This document shows, one piece after another, positions 3,933-33,766 of a stretch of 39,251 nucleotides of DNA. Position numbers and translations under genes: made by a program. Under the pieces are notes generated by a model, which saw nothing but the letters and a program-made list of their open reading frames with translations, was not told the DNA's origin and searched no databases. Origin of the DNA: a virus; the IMG/VR virus record IMGVR_UViG_3300048778_000044, positions 1 to 39,251 of that record, one strand, 5' to 3'. Numbering within the stretch: position 1 is the first letter of the stretch; every line of letters starts with the position of its first letter.

Positions 3933-5105
3933 ATGCTTCCTTCTGAAGCCGCGCAAAAACAATCTGAACGTCTAGCACAATACAGCCCGCTCATCCAGCA
4001 TCAAGTCACGACGCTGACGAGAAAGCTTTTTGTGCTAGGCTTCAGCGCGCTCTTCTCCCGTATGGTAGAGGGTCCGGTGGTTCGTATCTTCTACTTCAAA
4101 CCTCTCGGTGAGCCTAAATTCTCCAGCATCCTCAACAAAGAAGAAGAGTTTGCTGGCTCTCTTGCTGTAGAGTCCGTTCGTGTAGAACGTGCTCTCGGCG
4201 AAGTTGCTATTTCTGTTCCACGTGCAGACCGTCAAACCATACAGTTTGATGCTTGCTTGCATAAAATGATGACCTCGGAACTTACTCGTGGAATGGCGCT
4301 GCCTCTGTTACTAGGTCAATCCACTATCGGAGAACACCTTTATGCTGATCTTGCTCAGCAGCCGCATTTACTGGTCGCGGGAGCTACTAACTCAGGGAAA
4401 AGCGTATTTACCGCACAGCTTATTTGCTCGCTTTCTCTGTTTCGTTCTCCGGAAGAGCTTGAGTTTATCCTTGTGGATACTAAGAATCTTGATCTCGTAT
4501 TATTCAAGGGACTTGAGCATGTTAAATACGTACTCAACAACATCTCTGATCTCAGAGCCGCGCTTACGGTTTTACTTGAAGATGTTAGGTTGCGAAATGC
4601 CCAAATGAGTGGGTTAGCGCGGAACATTGGAGAGTGGAACAGCACAATCAATGGCTACGGTGATAAGAAGTTCAAGTACAAGATTCTTATCATCGACGAG
4701 CTGGCGGATGTGCTAGATCAGGATAACGCATTCTTAGCACAGATCGAGCGTAAAATGCGTCCACCGTCAATACACTCACTCTTGAAAACCATTGCACAAA
4801 TCTCTAGGGCTGCTGGAGTACATTTAATTCTTGCTACTCAACGGCCTTCAGTCAAGGTAATCTCTGGGGATATTAAAGCAAACTTTCCTGCTAGAGTATC
4901 CTTCAAGTTGCCAAGCTCGATGGATTCTCGCGTTATTCTTGACGAAACCGGCGCCGAGAATCTACTCGGTATGGGAGATTACTTGTACAAGATAGCAGGT
5001 TCCGATACCGTCAAGCGAGCGCACAGCGCGTTCGTATCAATCAACGATATTGCTAACATTCTCACACAGAATGAGAACATAAGGAGACAGTATGCCTCAA
5101 TCTAA
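3933..5105 (+). CDS. FtsK/SpoIIIE-type DNA translocase motor (390 aa)
   Basis: A full FtsK motor core is visible: an alpha-like domain with GPVVRIFYF near residue 47, Walker A GATNSGKS at 150-157, Walker B ILIIDELAD at 251-259, ILATQRPS near 299-306, and the DSRVILD...LLGMGDYLY block at 331-352. FtsK hexamers pump double-stranded DNA. The N-terminal membrane domain and the C-terminal winged-helix gamma domain that reads KOPS are missing, so it should be soluble and without known sequence steering. Packaging already has a terminase in this genome, so another job is likely: moving DNA at replication, segregation, or an anti-defence role. The ribosome site is GAAGGAG. The next gene overlaps by 14 bases. 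Confidence 0.92.
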   Translation: MLPSEAAQKQSERLAQYSPLIQHQVTTLTRKLFVLGFSALFSRMVEGPVVRIFYFKPLGEPKFSSILNKEEEFAGSLAVESVRVERALGEVAISVPRADRQTIQFDACLHKMMTSELTRGMALPLLLGQSTIGEHLYADLAQQPHLLVAGATNSGKSVFTAQLICSLSLFRSPEELEFILVDTKNLDLVLFKGLEHVKYVLNNISDLRAALTVLLEDVRLRNAQMSGLARNIGEWNSTINGYGDKKFKYKILIIDELADVLDQDNAFLAQIERKMRPPSIHSLLKTIAQISRAAGVHLILATQRPSVKVISGDIKANFPARVSFKLPSSMDSRVILDETGAENLLGMGDYLYKIAGSDTVKRAHSAFVSINDIANILTQNENIRRQYASI

Positions 5106-5337
5106 GCAAGAAGCAGAATCTCTGATGGAGCAGCAGCACTGCGGAGGAGATTACATCTCTCCTCAAGATGCAGGACTAGTTGATCCTGATGAAGAGCAGG
5201 ATGACGACCCCTATTGGTATGAGCACGTTGCTGATCTTTGTGCTTGCTGTGCTCATATGAGAGAATCCCATGTTAACTATGATGAAGACTGTAGCGAAGC
5301 TAACTGCGACTGTCTTCATTTCAAGGAGCCAGAATGA
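5092..5337 (+). CDS. small acidic zinc-binding protein (81 aa)
   Basis: The ATG lies inside the end of the FtsK-like gene behind AGGAGACAGT. The C-terminal half has the pattern CxCC-x2-H-x4-H-x8-C-x4-C-x-C-x2-F (CACCAHMRESH ... CSEANCDCLHF), a small zinc-knuckle arrangement common in short phage and actinobacterial proteins. The N-terminal half is strongly acidic. It probably binds one zinc ion and acts as a protein-interaction module. The function is unknown. It is coupled both to the translocase and, by ATGA, to the peptidoglycan enzyme after it. Confidence 0.75.
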   Translation: MPQSKQEAESLMEQQHCGGDYISPQDAGLVDPDEEQDDDPYWYEHVADLCACCAHMRESHVNYDEDCSEANCDCLHFKEPE

Positions 5338-5747
5338 AATACTACTACGATCGCTACTGGGGCACTTTCTTCAGGCGCTCTGTTGAAGCAGGTACTGGAC
5401 CTGTTACGCTTGACAACTCTGTAAGGCCAACAGACTTAGAACTCATTGGCTTTGGCTACAGCGGCAATGCAGCGTATCTCAACGACATCCACTCTCAGAA
5501 TCTTCAAGACAAAGGTCCGCTTCCAGCAGGAACATACACCTTCTCTGGCCCATTTGACGATCCTAAGCGCGGTCCACAGTGTTGGCGGCTTAATCCTGCA
5601 CCAACGAACCGCATGTTTGGTCGGTGTGCGTTTATGAACCACGGTGACACATCCGATATGTCTCACAATGCCTCAGACGGTTGTATCATAAGTCCGCACT
5701 GGGTAAGAAGTCTGTGGACTGATGGTGATACGTTGGAGGTGCTGTAA
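5334..5747 (+). CDS. Tlde1/DUF2778-like L,D-transpeptidase-fold peptidoglycan enzyme (137 aa)
   Basis: The protein has the hallmarks of the DUF2778/Tlde1 family: a GPLPAGTYTF stretch (residues about 62-71) followed by a His near NHGDT and the catalytic block SDGCIIS around residues 114-120. Family members are cysteine enzymes that cut or edit peptide stems of peptidoglycan; known ones are type VI secretion toxins. There is no signal peptide, so a holin or similar route would be needed if it acts as an endolysin. It is odd that this likely lysis enzyme sits in the rightward, probably early, block rather than with the late genes. It ends the cassette, and a terminator hairpin follows. Confidence 0.75.
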   Translation: MKYYYDRYWGTFFRRSVEAGTGPVTLDNSVRPTDLELIGFGYSGNAAYLNDIHSQNLQDKGPLPAGTYTFSGPFDDPKRGPQCWRLNPAPTNRMFGRCAFMNHGDTSDMSHNASDGCIISPHWVRSLWTDGDTLEVL

Positions 5748-10221: not shown

Positions 10222-10422
10222 ATGAGCTACCATGATCTAAGTGAATGTACCCTTTCGCCACAAGAACGCTTAGAAGAAGCTGTCCGTATTATGGACATGC
10301 TTGAGAATTCATCTGAGCTAAGAGACAATGAACGTGGGATGATGGATAATGTTGTTAAGTATCAAACTTGTTCAGTAAAACAACTGTTTTGGTTTCGTGA
10401 TATCAAGGATCGTGTGCTATAA
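10222..10422 (+). CDS. small hypothetical protein (66 aa)
   Basis: The ATG at 10222 follows AAAAGGAGAATAAG; a start at 10189 would lie in the hairpin and is rejected. The protein is helical and acidic (SPQERLEEAVRIMDMLEN) with two cysteines. The family is unknown. The stop overlaps the next ATG (TAATG), so it is coupled to the UDG-like/exonuclease gene. Confidence 0.7.
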   Translation: MSYHDLSECTLSPQERLEEAVRIMDMLENSSELRDNERGMMDNVVKYQTCSVKQLFWFRDIKDRVL

Positions 10423-11510
10423 TGCCTTTCATTTCGCCTAGAGGTACGCCAACTTCGAGAATCTGGGTTATCCTATCAAAACCCTACGGCTCTGACAAAG
10501 GCACACTCTTCTCAGGAGGAATGGGTCATGTTTTCTTTAAGATGTTACAAGAAGCTGGTATCGCTCAGTCAGATTGTTATTTTACCTCTCGTTCGCCCAA
10601 TACTGACGACGCTCATGCTTGCGTCAATCTTGATGCTGAGTTAGCCCATCATACTCCTCCGATAATTCTCGTTCTAGGAGACGTGGCGGGTTGGTTTTTG
10701 CCAGAGTTACGCGAGCCGAAGCTAATGACTACAAGCGCAGGGCAGTTGCAGAAATATGCTGGCTCTTTGCTGTCGGCGCCGTCACTCTCATATCCACATT
10801 ACATGATTCCGATCTACGGTTCCGAAAGATGCGTGGCCGATTGGACAGAGCGGAACATTACTACCTATGTGGACTTACAGAAAGTCCGCGATGAGTTTAA
10901 GTATTGGCAAAAGCATGGCACACTTCAACCTCTTCCAGAACGTGTAATGAAGTATCAAGATATGGATACGGATGAGCTACTCTCTTATCTTGATCGCTTC
11001 CGTAATGCTAAGATTCTCTCAGATGATATTGAAAATCCTACGTACCGAAGTGCCAAGTACTCTCCGCACCCAGGGTATCCACTGTTAATGGGTCTTGCTG
11101 ACTCAAGTACGTTTGGGATTAGTTTTAAACTCTTTCGTGATAAGCCAAGCGAAAACAGAGAACTCTGGAGAAGACTTGATGATCTCTATTACAATGTTCC
11201 GATTCTCTTGGGTCAGAACTTCTTTAACTATGATGCACTGTTTCATAACATGCTGGGGTTTAGGATACGACTTGAGAGAGTCCAAGATACTTTGCTGCGC
11301 CATCATATCTTGTGGCCGGAGCTGAGTCATAAGTTACAGTTTATGACCAGACAGTATACTCGTGAGCCATACTATAAGGATGAGAGTCACCATTGGACAC
11401 TTAAATATATGGATAGATTTCGTAGATATAATTGTCTGGATGCTTGTATTACAAGAGAGATCTACGATGCCCAAGAACTTGAGTTTAACGAACGGCCACA
11501 CTTGAGGTGA
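10422..11510 (+). CDS. UDG-like domain fused to DEDD 3'-5' exonuclease (362 aa), N-terminal part of a split PolA
   Basis: Residues 1-155 resemble the uracil-DNA glycosylase superfamily: TLFSGGMGHVFFKMLQEAGI at 28-47, LVLGDVAGWFL at 83-93, then a DLQKVRDEF end. The catalytic motif is altered (LSKPYGSDKG instead of GEAPGxxED), so glycosylase activity is doubtful. Residues 190-355 carry the proofreading exonuclease motifs DDIE (201-204), GQNFFNYD (264-271) and YNCLD (336-340). In phage SPO1 a UDG domain, exonuclease and polymerase are one chain; here the chain ends after the exonuclease, and the polymerase is a separate gene about 0.9 kb downstream. Its last codons (EFNERPHLR, stop) are repeated after the HNH gene. 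Confidence 0.85.
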   Translation: MPFISPRGTPTSRIWVILSKPYGSDKGTLFSGGMGHVFFKMLQEAGIAQSDCYFTSRSPNTDDAHACVNLDAELAHHTPPIILVLGDVAGWFLPELREPKLMTTSAGQLQKYAGSLLSAPSLSYPHYMIPIYGSERCVADWTERNITTYVDLQKVRDEFKYWQKHGTLQPLPERVMKYQDMDTDELLSYLDRFRNAKILSDDIENPTYRSAKYSPHPGYPLLMGLADSSTFGISFKLFRDKPSENRELWRRLDDLYYNVPILLGQNFFNYDALFHNMLGFRIRLERVQDTLLRHHILWPELSHKLQFMTRQYTREPYYKDESHHWTLKYMDRFRRYNCLDACITREIYDAQELEFNERPHLR

Positions 11511-11967
11511 TAACCATTGAGAAGGACTCACATACGTTACGATGTCATTGACAAAGGCTATACGACACCCTGTTGGATTTGGCAAGGATGTACTCGTGAA
11601 GGCTACGGAATGAAACAGAATTTAACTGGTGGGCCTAGTAAAATGATGCAAGCTCATGTTTATTATTATGAACTTGCAAAAGGAAAAGTACCTGCTGGTT
11701 TAATACTAGATCATCTCTGTAATCAAAGAGCTTGTGTTAATCCAGACCATCTTGAGCCAAAGACTCATAAGGCTAACATACGAAGAGGTAAAGTTCCTGT
11801 TGTAACAAAAGAAATAGCTGCCAAGATCAAGGAGTTATATTCCACAGGAAAGTGGCAGCAAAGCTGTCTTGCGGCAGCGTTCAAAATCTCACAACCAACA
11901 GTGTCTCAAATTATAAGAGGCATAACTTGGAATTGAAGAATTTAACCAACGTCCACAGTTACGATAG
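11481..11967 (+). repeat. duplicated 3' end of exonuclease gene flanking the HNH gene
   Basis: Bases 11481-11510 encode EFNERPHLR-stop, and 11938-11967 encode EFNQRPQLR-stop. Seven of nine residues match, but only 21 of 30 bases; most differences are at third positions. The second copy is followed by GGAG and the next ATG, so it is the original gene end. The first copy is the replacement that came with the HNH gene. Confidence 0.8.
11517..11936 (+). CDS. HNH homing endonuclease with C-terminal HTH (139 aa)
   Basis: This is a free-standing HNH nuclease: CWIWQGC, then VYYYELAKGKVPAG, DHLCNQRACVNPDHLEP (residues about 65-81; His and Asn of the active site, flanking cysteines), followed by a NUMOD-like helix-turn-helix (QSCLAAAFKISQPTVSQIIRG). 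The start is TTG at 11517 with AGGTGA (11505-11510) as ribosome site, and that site includes the stop codon of the exonuclease gene. It sits between the two halves of DNA polymerase, a favourite homing target. A diverged copy of the exonuclease 3' end follows its stop. Confidence 0.9.
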   Translation: MRRTHIRYDVIDKGYTTPCWIWQGCTREGYGMKQNLTGGPSKMMQAHVYYYELAKGKVPAGLILDHLCNQRACVNPDHLEPKTHKANIRRGKVPVVTKEIAAKIKELYSTGKWQQSCLAAAFKISQPTVSQIIRGITWN

Positions 11968-11975
11968 GAGAATCA

Positions 11976-12128
11976 ATGAACAAGCATCTGACAAAAATTC
12001 GTGAAATCTGTGCGTTTCTTCGGCAACTTGTGCCGATTTGCTATCTTTCGGTACTACAGCATAGGCTGGATGAGATTGTTGCAGAAGTTGATGCTATCAA
12101 AGTGATTCTGGAAAGAGAGGGTTTGTAA
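11976..12128 (+). CDS. small helical protein (50 aa)
   Basis: The ATG at 11976 follows TAGGAG, and the stop overlaps the ATG of the next gene (TAATG). The product (MNKHLTKIREICAFLRQLVP ... LDEIVAEVDAIKVILERE) is a likely helical hairpin with a leucine-rich, charged coiled-coil second half. No family is recognised. Before the HNH insertion it would have directly followed the exonuclease gene, so a subunit-bridging role between exonuclease and polymerase chains is possible, though untested. Confidence 0.7.
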   Translation: MNKHLTKIREICAFLRQLVPICYLSVLQHRLDEIVAEVDAIKVILEREGL

Positions 12129-12448
12129 TGATTACTCCTAAGTTACTAACCTCAGCACAGATCAAAGCTATGAATCGCTTTCTCAAGAATCGTATGATTG
12201 CTTGGGGTGATATAACTTTAAGTAACGAGGCTGCTAATAGATTGGCATTACTTTGTCAAATTGAACCGATAAATCTTTCTTATGTACTTAGCAGAGATTC
12301 AGAGGCGATATCTTGTAGAACAGCTTTGGGATGGTATGTGACATTTCATCGCTTTGAACAAGGAATAGAACAAACCAATTATTTCGCACTAGAATATGAA
12401 GCATGGAATGACGCTGCCAATCGTCTAAGAATGGTTGAGAATGACTGA
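12128..12448 (+). CDS. hypothetical protein (106 aa)
   Basis: It is coupled to the preceding gene by TAATG and overlaps the polymerase gene by 8 bases. It is a soluble, mixed alpha/beta protein with LTSAQIKAMNRFLKNR at the start and aromatic strands (GWYVTFHRFEQG) in the middle. I do not recognise it. It lies between the two polymerase halves and may be an accessory factor; no motif shows this. Confidence 0.65.
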   Translation: MITPKLLTSAQIKAMNRFLKNRMIAWGDITLSNEAANRLALLCQIEPINLSYVLSRDSEAISCRTALGWYVTFHRFEQGIEQTNYFALEYEAWNDAANRLRMVEND

Positions 12449-13946
12449 TCGAGTAACTAACACCTACGAACACGCTCTTCAGGCTGCCTACTATGACATA
12501 GGCAACCGTGGCATCTGCGTCAACACAGCACGAATCGCAGAGGCTAAAGCCATCGTCAAAGCTGAAGTGGCAAGACAATTAGCAATAGCTTCTTCACAAT
12601 GGCAAACAAAGGTTTTTGTCGGCGCGGCTAATGCTCCAGATGAAGCTGTCAAAGGTCTTAACGCTGGCAGCGCAATCAATATCAATGCGACACAGGGTAA
12701 GTTTGCACTTTTGACAGGACTCAAAACTCTCGGCTACGAAGTTGTCAAGATCACAAAGAAAAACTCTGAGGGAGATTATGAACAAAACTATTCAACCGGA
12801 GAACTCGCATTACAAAAGATGCTCTCAAAGAATCAGTTTGCGTATCCCGGAGGAGATCCGGCAATCAAAGCAATACTTAAAATTAGAGAACTTGGTAAAC
12901 TCTACTCCTCTTACCTTAACGCTAGACTTCTCTTTCGAGAAGGAGAAAGTTTCTTTCTTAGTAACTATAATGTCGCCGGAACGCTTACAGGTCGTAGATC
13001 GTCCAGAAGACATACGTTTGGTTTTGGAAACAATGCTCAAAATTTCCCCAAACATTCAGACGTGGCGTCGATGTATAGACGATGTCTTGTCGCACGTCCC
13101 GGAAATATCTTCTTGATGGTCGATCAGATCAGTGCCGAAGATTGGCCTGTGAGTGCGTTGTCAGAGAATCACCAAGCACTCAAGGAGCTACGAGATGATA
13201 CTGACGTTTACGGTCGGCACACTCGACTCGCATCTATCATATTTAACATTCCACTCAATGCAAAAACTCCCGGAGAGTGGAAAGATTCAATGGAACGGTA
13301 TCTTGGCAAGAAAACTCGTCATGCCAGCAACTATGACATGAAAGCTGGTCGTATGAGTGATGCACTGGCGCAGGAAGGCTTTAGTTTTAGCGAGAGCGAT
13401 TGTAGTACGCTTCTCAAGAAAGTCGCTGCTCATGATCCTTCTGTGCAGAAGATTTTTCATCAGTACGTCAAAGACACAATTTCCAAAACACACATGCTAG
13501 TAACTCCCTTTGGGAGAGAACGTCAGTTCTTAGGAGCGAGACCAAATGACAGCAACTCAAGTGTCTTCAAAGAAGCTTATGCTTACATACCTCAATCAAC
13601 TGTCGGTGACAATACCGGAATGGCAATCCTTGCTATGGAAACTAAGTATCCTGTCGGCGAAAGATTCGTGGTCCAAGAAGGACATGATAGCATTGTCCAG
13701 GATGTACCTTCAGATATCGAAACAGTTTACAGATATCTCCTACGAGTTGGAGAGAGTTTTAAGCGCAGCATTACCTTCCATAACGGAATTACTGTTGAAA
13801 TCCCCATTGAAGCAGAAGTTGGGTATGACTTCCAGACAACAGTTAAGATCAAAGAAGTAACTCGTGCTGGAGTCGCGGCGGCGATCGAGAAGCTCAAGGA
13901 CAAATTAGCGGCAATAGAACCGAAACAAGTTCTAATCACAGCATAA
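12441..13946 (+). CDS. DNA polymerase I family, polymerase domain only (501 aa)
   Basis: This is the thumb-palm-fingers part of a family A polymerase without exonuclease or 5' nuclease. Motif A is MVDQISAEDW (catalytic Asp near 228, Glu at the steric-gate position). Motif B is KKTRHASNYDMKAG at 290-303. Motif C is GHDSIV (His415-Asp416). Compared by eye with E. coli Pol I, the O-helix Lys758 is His, Phe762 is Tyr and Tyr766 is Ala, while both metal-binding Asp are kept. It presumably works with the separate UDG-like/exonuclease chain as the phage replicase. The ATG at 12441 is preferred over TTG at 12435. Confidence 0.93.
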   Translation: MTDRVTNTYEHALQAAYYDIGNRGICVNTARIAEAKAIVKAEVARQLAIASSQWQTKVFVGAANAPDEAVKGLNAGSAININATQGKFALLTGLKTLGYEVVKITKKNSEGDYEQNYSTGELALQKMLSKNQFAYPGGDPAIKAILKIRELGKLYSSYLNARLLFREGESFFLSNYNVAGTLTGRRSSRRHTFGFGNNAQNFPKHSDVASMYRRCLVARPGNIFLMVDQISAEDWPVSALSENHQALKELRDDTDVYGRHTRLASIIFNIPLNAKTPGEWKDSMERYLGKKTRHASNYDMKAGRMSDALAQEGFSFSESDCSTLLKKVAAHDPSVQKIFHQYVKDTISKTHMLVTPFGRERQFLGARPNDSNSSVFKEAYAYIPQSTVGDNTGMAILAMETKYPVGERFVVQEGHDSIVQDVPSDIETVYRYLLRVGESFKRSITFHNGITVEIPIEAEVGYDFQTTVKIKEVTRAGVAAAIEKLKDKLAAIEPKQVLITA

Positions 13947-13961: not shown

Positions 13962-15188
13962 ATGAGCAGGGTTCTAAAGAAGCCGTTCCATGAAAGTTTC
14001 ATTGACTGTGTCAGTCCTCATACTGATATTCCTGATACGTTTATCATCTGGTCGGCGCTCTCTCTTGTTGGAGCGGCGCTCAAAAACAATGTATACTTTC
14101 AGATTGGTACGTACACACTGTATCCGAATATGTTCATAGTACTTGTTGGACCTCCTGGCGTTGGTAAAGGAGCTTCGATGAACATTTTAGAACAGATGAT
14201 TATTGATACTAAACCAAATCAGGTAGTCAATACGCTGTCTGATCGTATTACAGCAGAACGTATCATCGAGCGTATCTCAGACGGCTGGAGTACAGCGCCG
14301 CAGCTAAAGAACATGCAACTTGTACTAGGTAAGAATGACCACAATTGCTTGCTCTTTAGTTCTGAGATTCGTGTCTTACTTGGAGCATCAGATTGGATGC
14401 TTGAGTTTCTCGAAGAAGCATGGAGCAAAACGACTTATGAATATCAAACTAAGAACAAAGGAAACGTGGCAATTGACAATATGTGCTGCTCGCTACTAGC
14501 TGCTTCTGTTCCTGATTTCCTTCGCAATGTCAATCGAGAAGCTCATATGGTCATTACAGGGGGGTTTTCAAGCAGATGCCTCTTTATCTACGCAGAAAAT
14601 CCGTCTAAAGACTTACCATTCCCGGAGCCGCTTAAAAAGAACGTAAAGTCCAAAGCTCTCTATGATAATCTTGTTCTTGATCTCCAAGAAATAGGCACTC
14701 TTCGTGGAGAGTTTGTCATAGACACTGGCGCACGATTACGCTTTGAGACTTTCTTACGTCTCAATCGCGCTGCCTCGTCAAAGGATGACTCCGAGGCTGT
14801 AGCAAATTTTCGAGCTAGAATAAAAGCTCATATTCTGAAGTTAGCTATGATTTTTAGTGTCTCTCGTGATAATTCTCTTCACATCTCTGATATGGATATG
14901 GTCAATGCTATAGCAGAGATACAAAAAATTCTTGCAAGTTTGTCAAAGCTTTTCCGCGGCGCTGGAGAAGGAATGGATGCCGCAGTAACGGCACGAGTAC
15001 AGGATTTTATTGAGAAGTACGGCAGAGTCTCGAAGAAAGAGATTTTCAAAGCGTTACACAGACACTTAAACTCTCCCGAAACTCTCGATAGAATTCTTTA
15101 CGTTCTTGAAGCCATAGGTTATTGTACTGTGGTGAACTCAAACAAAATGACGTTTTATCAACCTGTAGTGAGGAAGGTAGGTCCATGA
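13962..15188 (+). CDS. DUF3987-like helicase/primase-associated ATPase (408 aa)
   Basis: The layout matches DUF3987. An N-terminal helical lead (DIPDTFIIWSALSLVGAAL) is followed by YPNMFIVLVGPPGVGKG with Walker A GPPGVGKG at residues 63-70. A RecA-like core then has LLFSSEIRVLL and GGFSSRCLFIYAE (arginine-finger region), and the C-terminal part is a helical, winged-helix-like section (RVSKKEIFKALHRHL). Such proteins are linked to primases in mobile elements and are taken as replicative helicase-like ATPases. No primase domain is present. The gene lies directly after the polymerase and overlaps the next gene by ATGA. Confidence 0.8.
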   Translation: MSRVLKKPFHESFIDCVSPHTDIPDTFIIWSALSLVGAALKNNVYFQIGTYTLYPNMFIVLVGPPGVGKGASMNILEQMIIDTKPNQVVNTLSDRITAERIIERISDGWSTAPQLKNMQLVLGKNDHNCLLFSSEIRVLLGASDWMLEFLEEAWSKTTYEYQTKNKGNVAIDNMCCSLLAASVPDFLRNVNREAHMVITGGFSSRCLFIYAENPSKDLPFPEPLKKNVKSKALYDNLVLDLQEIGTLRGEFVIDTGARLRFETFLRLNRAASSKDDSEAVANFRARIKAHILKLAMIFSVSRDNSLHISDMDMVNAIAEIQKILASLSKLFRGAGEGMDAAVTARVQDFIEKYGRVSKKEIFKALHRHLNSPETLDRILYVLEAIGYCTVVNSNKMTFYQPVVRKVGP

Positions 15189-15925
15189 TGGCGATCTATA
15201 GCATACCAAAGTCAAATAAATCCGTGAACGTGGCACCAGAGGAGCCACAGAAACCAGATGCTCCGAATTTTTTGGCGCTAAGACGCCTTGAACTAGAAGC
15301 AGAAGACGCTGCCGATATAGCACTAAAGTCTGCCAGCGAAATCGTACTCGATGGTTCTAACAAGGTTACTATTCCAGGTTATGCTTATACATTCGAAGCT
15401 CTAGGTGAGCGGATACTCGTTAGTTTAGATATTCCACTCTCAGGCTATGAGTGTAAGACTTGTCTAGGCAGAAAGCGTATTAAGCGTCAGTGTGAGTGTG
15501 TAACGTGTGGAAGAGCAGGAAAAAAGTACACACTGGAACAAATAGAAGACATTCGTAAAACTCTTGGAGACTCTGTGGCAGATGCTCGTACTGAGATTAT
15601 CTGTCCAGAGTGCGGTGGTGATCCTGACAGTGTTGCCACAGATGAAGTCTGTCCAGAGTGTAACGGCGTTGGCGGCAAAGTTTGGATTCCACGTTCAGCA
15701 AAAGAATTCCCTACCACCGGTGTCGTAGTCTCGATGGGTTCTGTAGCAAGAGAGAAAGCTGAATTTAAGATCGGTGATCGTATTCTCTTTGGTTTCCAAG
15801 CAGGAACAATGATTCCAAACAAGGCTGGATTACCGTTTAAATACATGGACTATTACAACGGCGCGATTAAGATTGAAGGTGCCGAAGCTATGGCAGCCTT
15901 TGATTTTGTGTTGTCGGCAGTCTAA
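15185..15925 (+). CDS. GroES-fold protein with inserted DnaJ-type zinc domain (246 aa)
   Basis: The GroES signature is split by an insertion. [13 protein letters not shown] (72-84) matches the first strand of Gro[17 protein letters not shown] (173-187), KIGDRILFG (195-203) and the closing [13 protein letters not shown] match the rest. Where the GroES mobile loop belongs, residues 87-165 carry Cys90, 93, 103, 105, 108, 140, 143, 156 and 159, including CPECNGVGG, the exact CxxCxGxG repeat of DnaJ. The first 65 residues are an extra helical, charged region. It may serve as a co-chaperonin for host GroEL, as T4 gp31 does, with the zinc part adding client binding. The start is ATGATG in an ATGA overlap; ribosome site AGGAAGG. 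Confidence 0.8.
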
Positions 15926-15938
15926 GAAAGGAGGTGTC

Positions 15939-16100
15939 ATGCCACTTGAAGAAGGGAGTTCAAAAAAAGTAATCTCAGATAATATTAAAACTGAGATGCA
16001 CGCTGGTAAACCACAAAAACAAGCTGTCGCTATTGCAATGAGTGAAGCTGGTAAAAGAAGACAGAAGAGAAAGAAGACTCAGAAAAAGAAATACTCGTAG
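15939..16100 (+). CDS. small basic DUF6496-like protein (53 aa)
   Basis: The ATG at 15939 follows a perfect GGAGGT ribosome site. The core ([20 protein letters not shown]) matches the short motif of DUF6496-type proteins found across phages and bacteria. The C-terminus is almost only Lys, Arg and Gln. The charge suggests nucleic-acid binding. It is the last gene of the rightward block and stands just before the shared terminator. Confidence 0.75.
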
Positions 16101-16107
16101 CATAAGA

Positions 16108-16150
16108 AAGTCCCACTCTAGAGAACATTCTAGAGTGGGGACTTCTTGTT
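16108..16150. terminator. bidirectional terminator between convergent blocks
   Basis: AAGTCCCACTCTAGA (16108-16122) pairs with TCTAGAGTGGGGACTT (16129-16144) with one bulged G and a 6-base loop. CTTCTTGTTT follows on the plus side and CTTTCTTAT on the minus side. It lies between the last plus-strand gene and the 3' end of the spike gene, the expected place for a shared terminator. Confidence 0.75.
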
Positions 16151-32806: not shown

Positions 32807-33766
32807 CTAAGGACCTTGTGTCCCCCATACCCCTTGCCAACGAGGACACCAGGCGGCCACTCTCATACGAGTCTTCTGCTTGATAGCATCAGTGTCGAAG
32901 TCATCATCAAACTCCGTTGTAGGAGCTTCACGATTGACCACTTGCAAGGCATGATCTGCTTTTTCTGCAACCAAGAACCAAGCAGACGGCGAGTTAAGCC
33001 AAGGAACTTCAAGATTCTTGTAATCCTCAGGCAACAGAGAATTGATCGTATTATCTCCTGTATAGGGCTTACCCGGAGAACCAAGAATCTCTCGAACCAA
33101 GAACCGAAGTTCAGGAGGAGTAATGAGATTCGCCCATTTGAGCCGAATCGGGAAGCCCATGTTATCTACCATGCGGGAAGCGTGGTTAGTAGCAAGTTGA
33201 AGACCTGCTACTGAAAAATCCACATCTACAGAAGGTCGGTTAGGATAAGTTCCCGGCGCAGAAATAACGCCAGCCAATCCTGGACCAATCGCTGTAGCCT
33301 GTGCGCCACCGAGCAGAGCATGAGCATTGTAGAAAAGAGGATTACCGTCGAATGTAGTAACCGAAGATGTAAATCCTTGATTGAGCACATTCCATGAAAT
33401 CATCTCTTTGGTAAATGCCGCAGACCGTGCCAGCAACGTCGGACCCTTTTTCCCGACAAGGCCATACTTGTCATCGTCATACAGTTCCTTGGAAGTCCTA
33501 ATACCAAGAGAGTACGTCAGAGGCTCGACTCTCTTAGAAGCTCCCTGCTTCATCTCTGTATAAGTAGTAGAAGCATTTTCAGGCTTTTCAAGTAGCACAG
33601 AGATGCCTGCCATCTCAAGCTCTTGTTCATACTCAGAGTCAGAATCTACCTCATGAAACACCTTAGGATAGTCTGACGATTTCAACTGATTGTCAAGGCA
33701 ATCGAAGTAAATCTTCTTAAGCCCCGGCTGCATCAGCTGTGCGAATTTTGCTCTAACTTGAGGCAT
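32807..33766 (-). CDS. major capsid protein, Mu gpT-like (319 aa)
   Basis: The layout matches the gpT-like branch of HK97-fold capsid proteins: an N-terminal FAQLMQPGLKKIYFD, an E-loop-like region with EMAGISVLLEKPENA, LGIRTSKELYDDDKYGL, the FDGNPLFYNAHALLGG block near 139-154, and the closing TRMRVAAWCPRWQGVWG. The start follows GAAGGAG. It lies after scaffold and decoration-like genes, the standard head-gene order. It assembles the icosahedral shell. Confidence 0.85.
   Translation of the reverse strand: MPQVRAKFAQLMQPGLKKIYFDCLDNQLKSSDYPKVFHEVDSDSEYEQELEMAGISVLLEKPENASTTYTEMKQGASKRVEPLTYSLGIRTSKELYDDDKYGLVGKKGPTLLARSAAFTKEMISWNVLNQGFTSSVTTFDGNPLFYNAHALLGGAQATAIGPGLAGVISAPGTYPNRPSVDVDFSVAGLQLATNHASRMVDNMGFPIRLKWANLITPPELRFLVREILGSPGKPYTGDNTINSLLPEDYKNLEVPWLNSPSAWFLVAEKADHALQVVNREAPTTEFDDDFDTDAIKQKTRMRVAAWCPRWQGVWGTQGP

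Follow-up and report, generated by a model that had tools for sequence, protein, structure and literature searches.

The grip of the co-chaperonin GroES (Cpn10) on GroEL is set by its mobile loop, which is disordered until docked. In Escherichia coli, the residues in contact with GroEL are Ile25-Val26-Leu27 (PMC5653362). In gp31 of phage T4, the roof loops are missing and the mobile loop is lengthened to 22 residues (PMC6318259). A co-chaperonin of a further kind is encoded in a stretch of viral DNA of 39,251 nucleotides (IMG/VR record IMGVR_UViG_3300048778_000044), which was analysed as a whole and is referred to here as the window. Like T4 gp31 and other phage GroES (PHROG 3188), the protein is phage-encoded, has a predicted Cpn10 fold, and is expected to replace host GroES; as in gp31, the roof loop is short or missing and the mobile loop is lengthened. 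Unlike the 22-residue loop of gp31, however, the mobile loop of this family has a putative zinc hairpin of 31–76 residues built in.

With bacterial GroES and chloroplast Cpn20, which are its best profile matches, the family shares the barrel and the motif at the tip of the loop (GG, three hydrophobic residues, P), whereas the cellular proteins lack a zinc insert and possess a full roof hairpin. The insert resembles the zinc domain of DnaJ and BSD2 in having, in one clade, four CxxCxGxG repeats in order. It differs from that domain in being inserted in a co-chaperonin, and the copy in the window keeps one exact repeat and falls below the thresholds of both Pfam models. Weak echoes in sequence and fold were also obtained for the GroES-like alcohol dehydrogenases, whose structural zinc lobe is a zinc loop in a GroES-like fold; these enzymes do not function as co-chaperonins. 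Searches of an open-access library yielded neither a zinc-bearing GroES nor a DnaJ/BSD2-type insert in a Cpn10 mobile loop. As judged from that library, which does not prove priority, a putative zinc hairpin within the loop that grips GroEL appears to be a new co-chaperonin architecture.

Gene and GroES fold

The gene is located on the forward strand at positions 15185..15922 (15925 with the stop codon), and its translation comprises 246 residues without internal stops. Its ribosome-binding site (gaggaaggtaggtcc, followed by the ATG; 15167..15184, forward strand) lies within the last codons of the upstream neighbour, a DUF3987 primase/helicase-type gene (13962..15188, forward strand), whose stop codon overlaps the start codon of the GroES gene (ATGA). 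The primases of the relatives also terminate in KVGP followed by the stop. The end of the operon is marked by a terminator-like stem on both strands (16111..16140). A small basic ORF with a strong ribosome-binding site (15941-16100, forward strand) is present immediately after the GroES gene. Upstream of the primase, a family A DNA polymerase (10422-13946, forward strand) is split into two ORFs, one for the exonuclease side (10422-11510) and one for the polymerase part (12435-13946), which flank a gene for an HNH endonuclease (11517-11936).

The initial annotation had described two GroES halves around a cysteine-rich insert, an anatomy that is secure. The N-terminal GroES strands (residues 53-85; 15341..15439, forward strand) are conserved in the relatives, align with Cpn10 when the insert is left out, and form strands in the structure model. 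The C-terminal GroES body, including the shortened roof loop, comprises residues 170-246 (15692..15922, forward strand). Pfam Cpn10 (PF00166) matches residues 164-211 with 29.2 bits (cut-off 21.1), and most relatives also pass this cut-off; the curated cut-offs of the NCBIfam GroES equivalogs are missed by far (27.2 vs 133 bits). An insert-free profile of the family recovers the N-terminal strand, which is present also in the predicted fold, and spans the whole of Cpn10, first strand included; its matches to solved bacterial Cpn10 and chloroplast-type Cpn20 have E-values of 3e-17 to 1e-6.

The structure model of the window protein, which is of middling confidence (pLDDT 67.5, pTM 0.49), aligns over residues 66-232 with 1p3h_A (Z 9.1, rmsd 3.2, 82 residues; VIA-align) and also with T4 gp31 (Z 8.2). 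The top 16 rows of the fold search were all of the Cpn10 type. The absence of a DnaJ zinc domain among the fold matches listed is uninformative because the barrel filled the list. By the Pfam match, the insert-free profile, and the fold match over both halves, the window protein can be regarded as a predicted GroES-fold protein whose membership in Cpn10 is well supported. Its roof loop and those of its relatives have 8–11 residues and do not form a roof hairpin; measured in the same way, the E. coli loop has 17. In three relatives (L074, L086, and L082), an extra insert of ~35–47 residues is located at the roof loop, so that a second loop of GroES has also served as an insertion site.

Putative zinc insert and its site in the mobile loop

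The insert comprises residues 90-162 (15452..15670, forward strand) and reads CKTC ... CECVTC ... CPEC ... CPECNGV. All nine cysteines of the protein are found here (C90, C93, C103, C105, C108, C140, C143, C156, and C159), with CxxC motifs at residues 90, 105, 140, and 156. The count of nine cysteines including an exact CxxCxGxG, given in the initial annotation, was confirmed for residues 90-159; the only exact repeat is at residue 156 (CPECNGVG). When the protein sequence was shuffled, four CxxC motifs were reached in 8 of 100,000 cases, and a cluster of all cysteines within 70 residues in 9 of 100,000. Moreover, an alignment of seven proteins, down to about 61% identity, shows no change at any of the nine cysteines. 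Shuffling and invariance together rule out a chance accumulation of cysteines. The metal held by the insert is presumably zinc.

The description of the insert as a DnaJ-type zinc domain stands by way of the relatives. The window copy alone reaches 16.7 bits with PF00684 (DnaJ cysteine-rich domain), the best relative 27.0, and the cut-off is 32.7; the window copy also gives other weak zinc-ribbon matches. Because this copy alone is below the curated cut-off, the label rests on relatives with inserts at the same site, which match profiles of BSD2 and DnaJ. A four-repeat CxxC(xGxG) domain forms the insert in a clade to which L068, L051, L055, and L073 belong, and in L068 all four repeats are exact CxxCxGxG. 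An insert-only profile of the four-repeat type is closest to BSD2 (5e-7), followed by MAS5 and DNAJA2 (about 1e-5) and E. coli DnaJ (6e-5), and anti-TRAP is also among the matches. NCBIfam DnaJ models match the same clade via its zinc region. Separate profile searches of the two parts led to Cpn10/Cpn20 for the GroES part and to BSD2/DnaJ for the insert. In the window copy, the second repeat reads CxCxxC, and repeats 2 and 3 are separated by a long stretch that is predicted to be helical; judging from its sequence, this copy is a derived, degenerate form of the DnaJ/BSD2-type zinc domain. The GroES protein itself lacks a J domain and is therefore not a type I Hsp40, but a separate J-domain gene is present in the window.

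The insert is directly followed by the retained tip of the mobile loop (GGKVWIP, residues 163-169; 15671..15691, forward strand). In the family profile, the GG-(I/V/L)3-P of the phage proteins aligns with the GGIV(I/L)P of solved GroES; in the window, the tripeptide is VWI, and the triplet is mostly hydrophobic in 55 of the 56 clusters of the family. Because of this alignment at the loop tip and a fold match that spans the insert, the zinc hairpin is placed in the N-terminal arm of the mobile loop, beside the predicted GroEL-gripping residues. The insert had been thought to stand in place of the mobile loop. Such a replacement is ruled out, since both the tripeptide and the C-terminal arm have been retained and the insert lies inside the loop, which has therefore been lengthened and not swapped.

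Distribution, variation, and genome setting of the family

Scans of IMG/VR yielded 63 distinct viral proteins with the insert, which form 56 clusters at 90% identity. At the sensitivity used, neither INPHARED phages nor GTDB contigs yielded an insert-bearing GroES, one of the INPHARED scans having produced matches at chance level only, so that the family is known here from uncultivated phages only. INPHARED nevertheless holds 90 records with a recognisable ordinary GroES. Matches on plasmids were one ordinary GroES and some zinc-rich stretches, and did not belong to the family. Several viral GroES of 139–200 residues in BFVD may be unnoticed relatives.

Some of the scans used the motif SGYEC, which might have inflated the prevalence of the insert. 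Scans with the C-terminal pattern only speak against such an artefact, as the insert was present in 41 of 43 distinct matches and is therefore a fixed trait of the lineage. The two matches without it are a truncated contig end and an ordinary GroES (L138). The latter (742-969) is an insert-free viral protein and a possible outgroup for the state before the insertion.

The hallmark of the family is SGYE (S/T-G-Y-E; residues 86-89; 15440..15451, forward strand), which directly precedes the first zinc cysteine in all 39 non-redundant members, a conservation that is partly ascertained by the scans with SGYEC and was checked with the C-terminal-only scans. It is the most conserved stretch, with a mean entropy of 0.04 bits vs 1.5 for the neighbouring GroES strand; the rare variants SGYD, TGFE, and SGFE occur in the wider set from the C-terminal-only scans. 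Purifying selection acts on the GroES parts (dN/dS 0 to 0.17) and, more weakly, on the zinc part (dN/dS 0.15–0.34). Across the family, the insert ranges from 31 to 76 residues. Every complete insert-bearing member has the outer CxxC pair, and 8 of the 39 members in the tree have only two CxxC, in inserts of about 31 residues with two repeats. In a tree built from the insert-free part, six changes are needed to explain the two-CxxC state, and well-supported branches force no fewer than four of them. The inner repeats were thus repeatedly lost or gained as a unit, the outer pair never.

The genome setting differs between clades. In the clade of the window, the GroES gene overlaps the primase gene at the end of the replication operon, and in the sister clade it is located downstream of polymerase and primase. 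In a third clade, its place is upstream of homologues of the window's terminase and portal genes. No phage-borne GroEL was found in 16 records, which makes host GroEL the likely partner.

A J-domain gene with an HPD motif had been noted at position 2263 of the window, and it is indeed present in the same genome (2263..2826, forward strand), with the J domain at the C-terminal end of the protein. Its Pfam score (24.1 bits) is below the cut-off of 27.8, which is passed by orthologues in three records. An HPD-bearing J-domain gene is present in 18 of 24 window-like records, but its co-occurrence with the GroES gene lies within one lineage and does not independently attest to a joint action. None of 15 third-clade records, many of which are fragments, yielded such a gene. 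Phage proteins may act on both GroEL and DnaK of the host. In the window protein, HPD is followed by K.SELN.LW; the orthologues, which are widespread in window-like phages, share a region with (E)(D/N)F(F/Y)Y before the J domain. Other genes of the early region include one for an FtsK/SpoIIIE-type ATPase with an FtsK alpha domain in the early operon (3933-5105, forward strand) and one for a small protein with a Tlde1 domain (5334-5747, forward strand; Pfam PF10908, 45.7 bits), which is unexpected in a phage early region and may be a cell-wall enzyme.

Possible roles of the hairpin

The protein is probably a phage co-chaperonin that caps host GroEL and whose docking loop is stapled by the zinc hairpin. 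A lid with the GroES/Cpn10 fold would cap host GroEL as T4 gp31 does, and its clients would be phage proteins, most likely including head proteins; the capsid protein of the phage is encoded at 32807-33766. The DnaJ/BSD2-type hairpin would enlarge the mobile loop directly before the GroEL-contact tripeptide, and the outer zinc site, formed by the first and last CxxC, would close the base of the hairpin, so that the loop would be stapled. A stapled loop could present the tripeptide (VWI in the window) pre-formed, and the phage lid would then have an advantage over the GroES of the host. Contact with the apical domain of GroEL is probably made by the conserved SGYEC base as well, and the hairpin may also lend the lid client-binding power. 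Presumably, the lid forms a heptamer that docks on GroEL; the stapling effect and the identity of the clients are likewise presumed. The position beside terminase and portal genes in the third clade, a head-module setting, speaks for a folding lid, whereas the position in the replication operon of the window clade, away from the head genes, speaks against it.

An arrangement in which the hairpin is a client-binding arm, with seven DnaJ/BSD2-like fingers on the rim of the GroES ring, seems rather unlikely as the main explanation. The arm would catch phage proteins and either deliver them to the GroEL cage or take them over from it, a task in which the phage J-domain protein and host DnaK might cooperate. 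The profile of the insert is most similar to BSD2, a DnaJ-type zinc chaperone, which in Rubisco assembly works after release from the chaperonin (PMC5859369). Co-occurrence with the J-domain gene in 18 of 24 window-like records, all within one lineage, would also fit, but no J-domain gene was detected in the 15 records, mostly fragments, of the clade whose zinc domains are the most canonical. The two zinc centres of DnaJ are interleaved: centre I is formed by repeats 1 and 4, the very pair that is never lost here, and the other centre by repeats 2 and 3. According to Linke et al. (2003), cited in PMC4428491, centre I is required to bind substrate, and centre II for DnaK; the conservation of the outer pair therefore fits client binding by zinc centre I as well and counts to that extent against a stapled loop. 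However, two-repeat inserts of about 31 residues offer little surface for clients, and conservation peaks at the base of the hairpin beside the tripeptide, as expected of a fixed partner and not of varied clients. Stapling and client binding can hold together, but a stapled docking loop is favoured because the outer CxxC pair, SGYE, and the tripeptide are all located at the point of contact with GroEL. An extension of the client-binding arm, in which the Hsp40 kit is rebuilt on the lid, with the GroES-borne zinc domain catching clients and the phage J-domain protein recruiting DnaK for a hand-over from Hsp70 to GroEL, is a speculative and improbable scenario.

It is quite improbable that the protein is a modulator that blocks or redirects GroEL or another target, or serves the adjoining replication complex, and not a folding lid. 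Its large divergence from cellular GroES would agree with such a role, as would the overlap with the primase gene in the window clade and the position after the primase in the sister clade, but the elements of the GroES body are under purifying selection, and in the third clade the gene stands beside terminase and portal genes. Hardly credible is an origin of the insert from an unrelated zinc ribbon of the anti-TRAP or zinc-knuckle type whose likeness to DnaJ lies in its CxxC pairs alone: although the window copy is below the DnaJ zinc cut-off and shows other weak zinc-ribbon matches, and although anti-TRAP is among the matches of the family, same-site inserts with four CxxCxGxG repeats (L068) have their best-scoring matches in BSD2 and DnaJ.

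If the hairpin binds clients, the lid would be a co-chaperonin with a client-binding domain of its own, in which Hsp40 chemistry is joined to the GroEL lid. For a docking loop stapled by zinc, the natural loop variants with one or two predicted zinc sites provide a ready-made test of loop order versus the chaperonin cycle.
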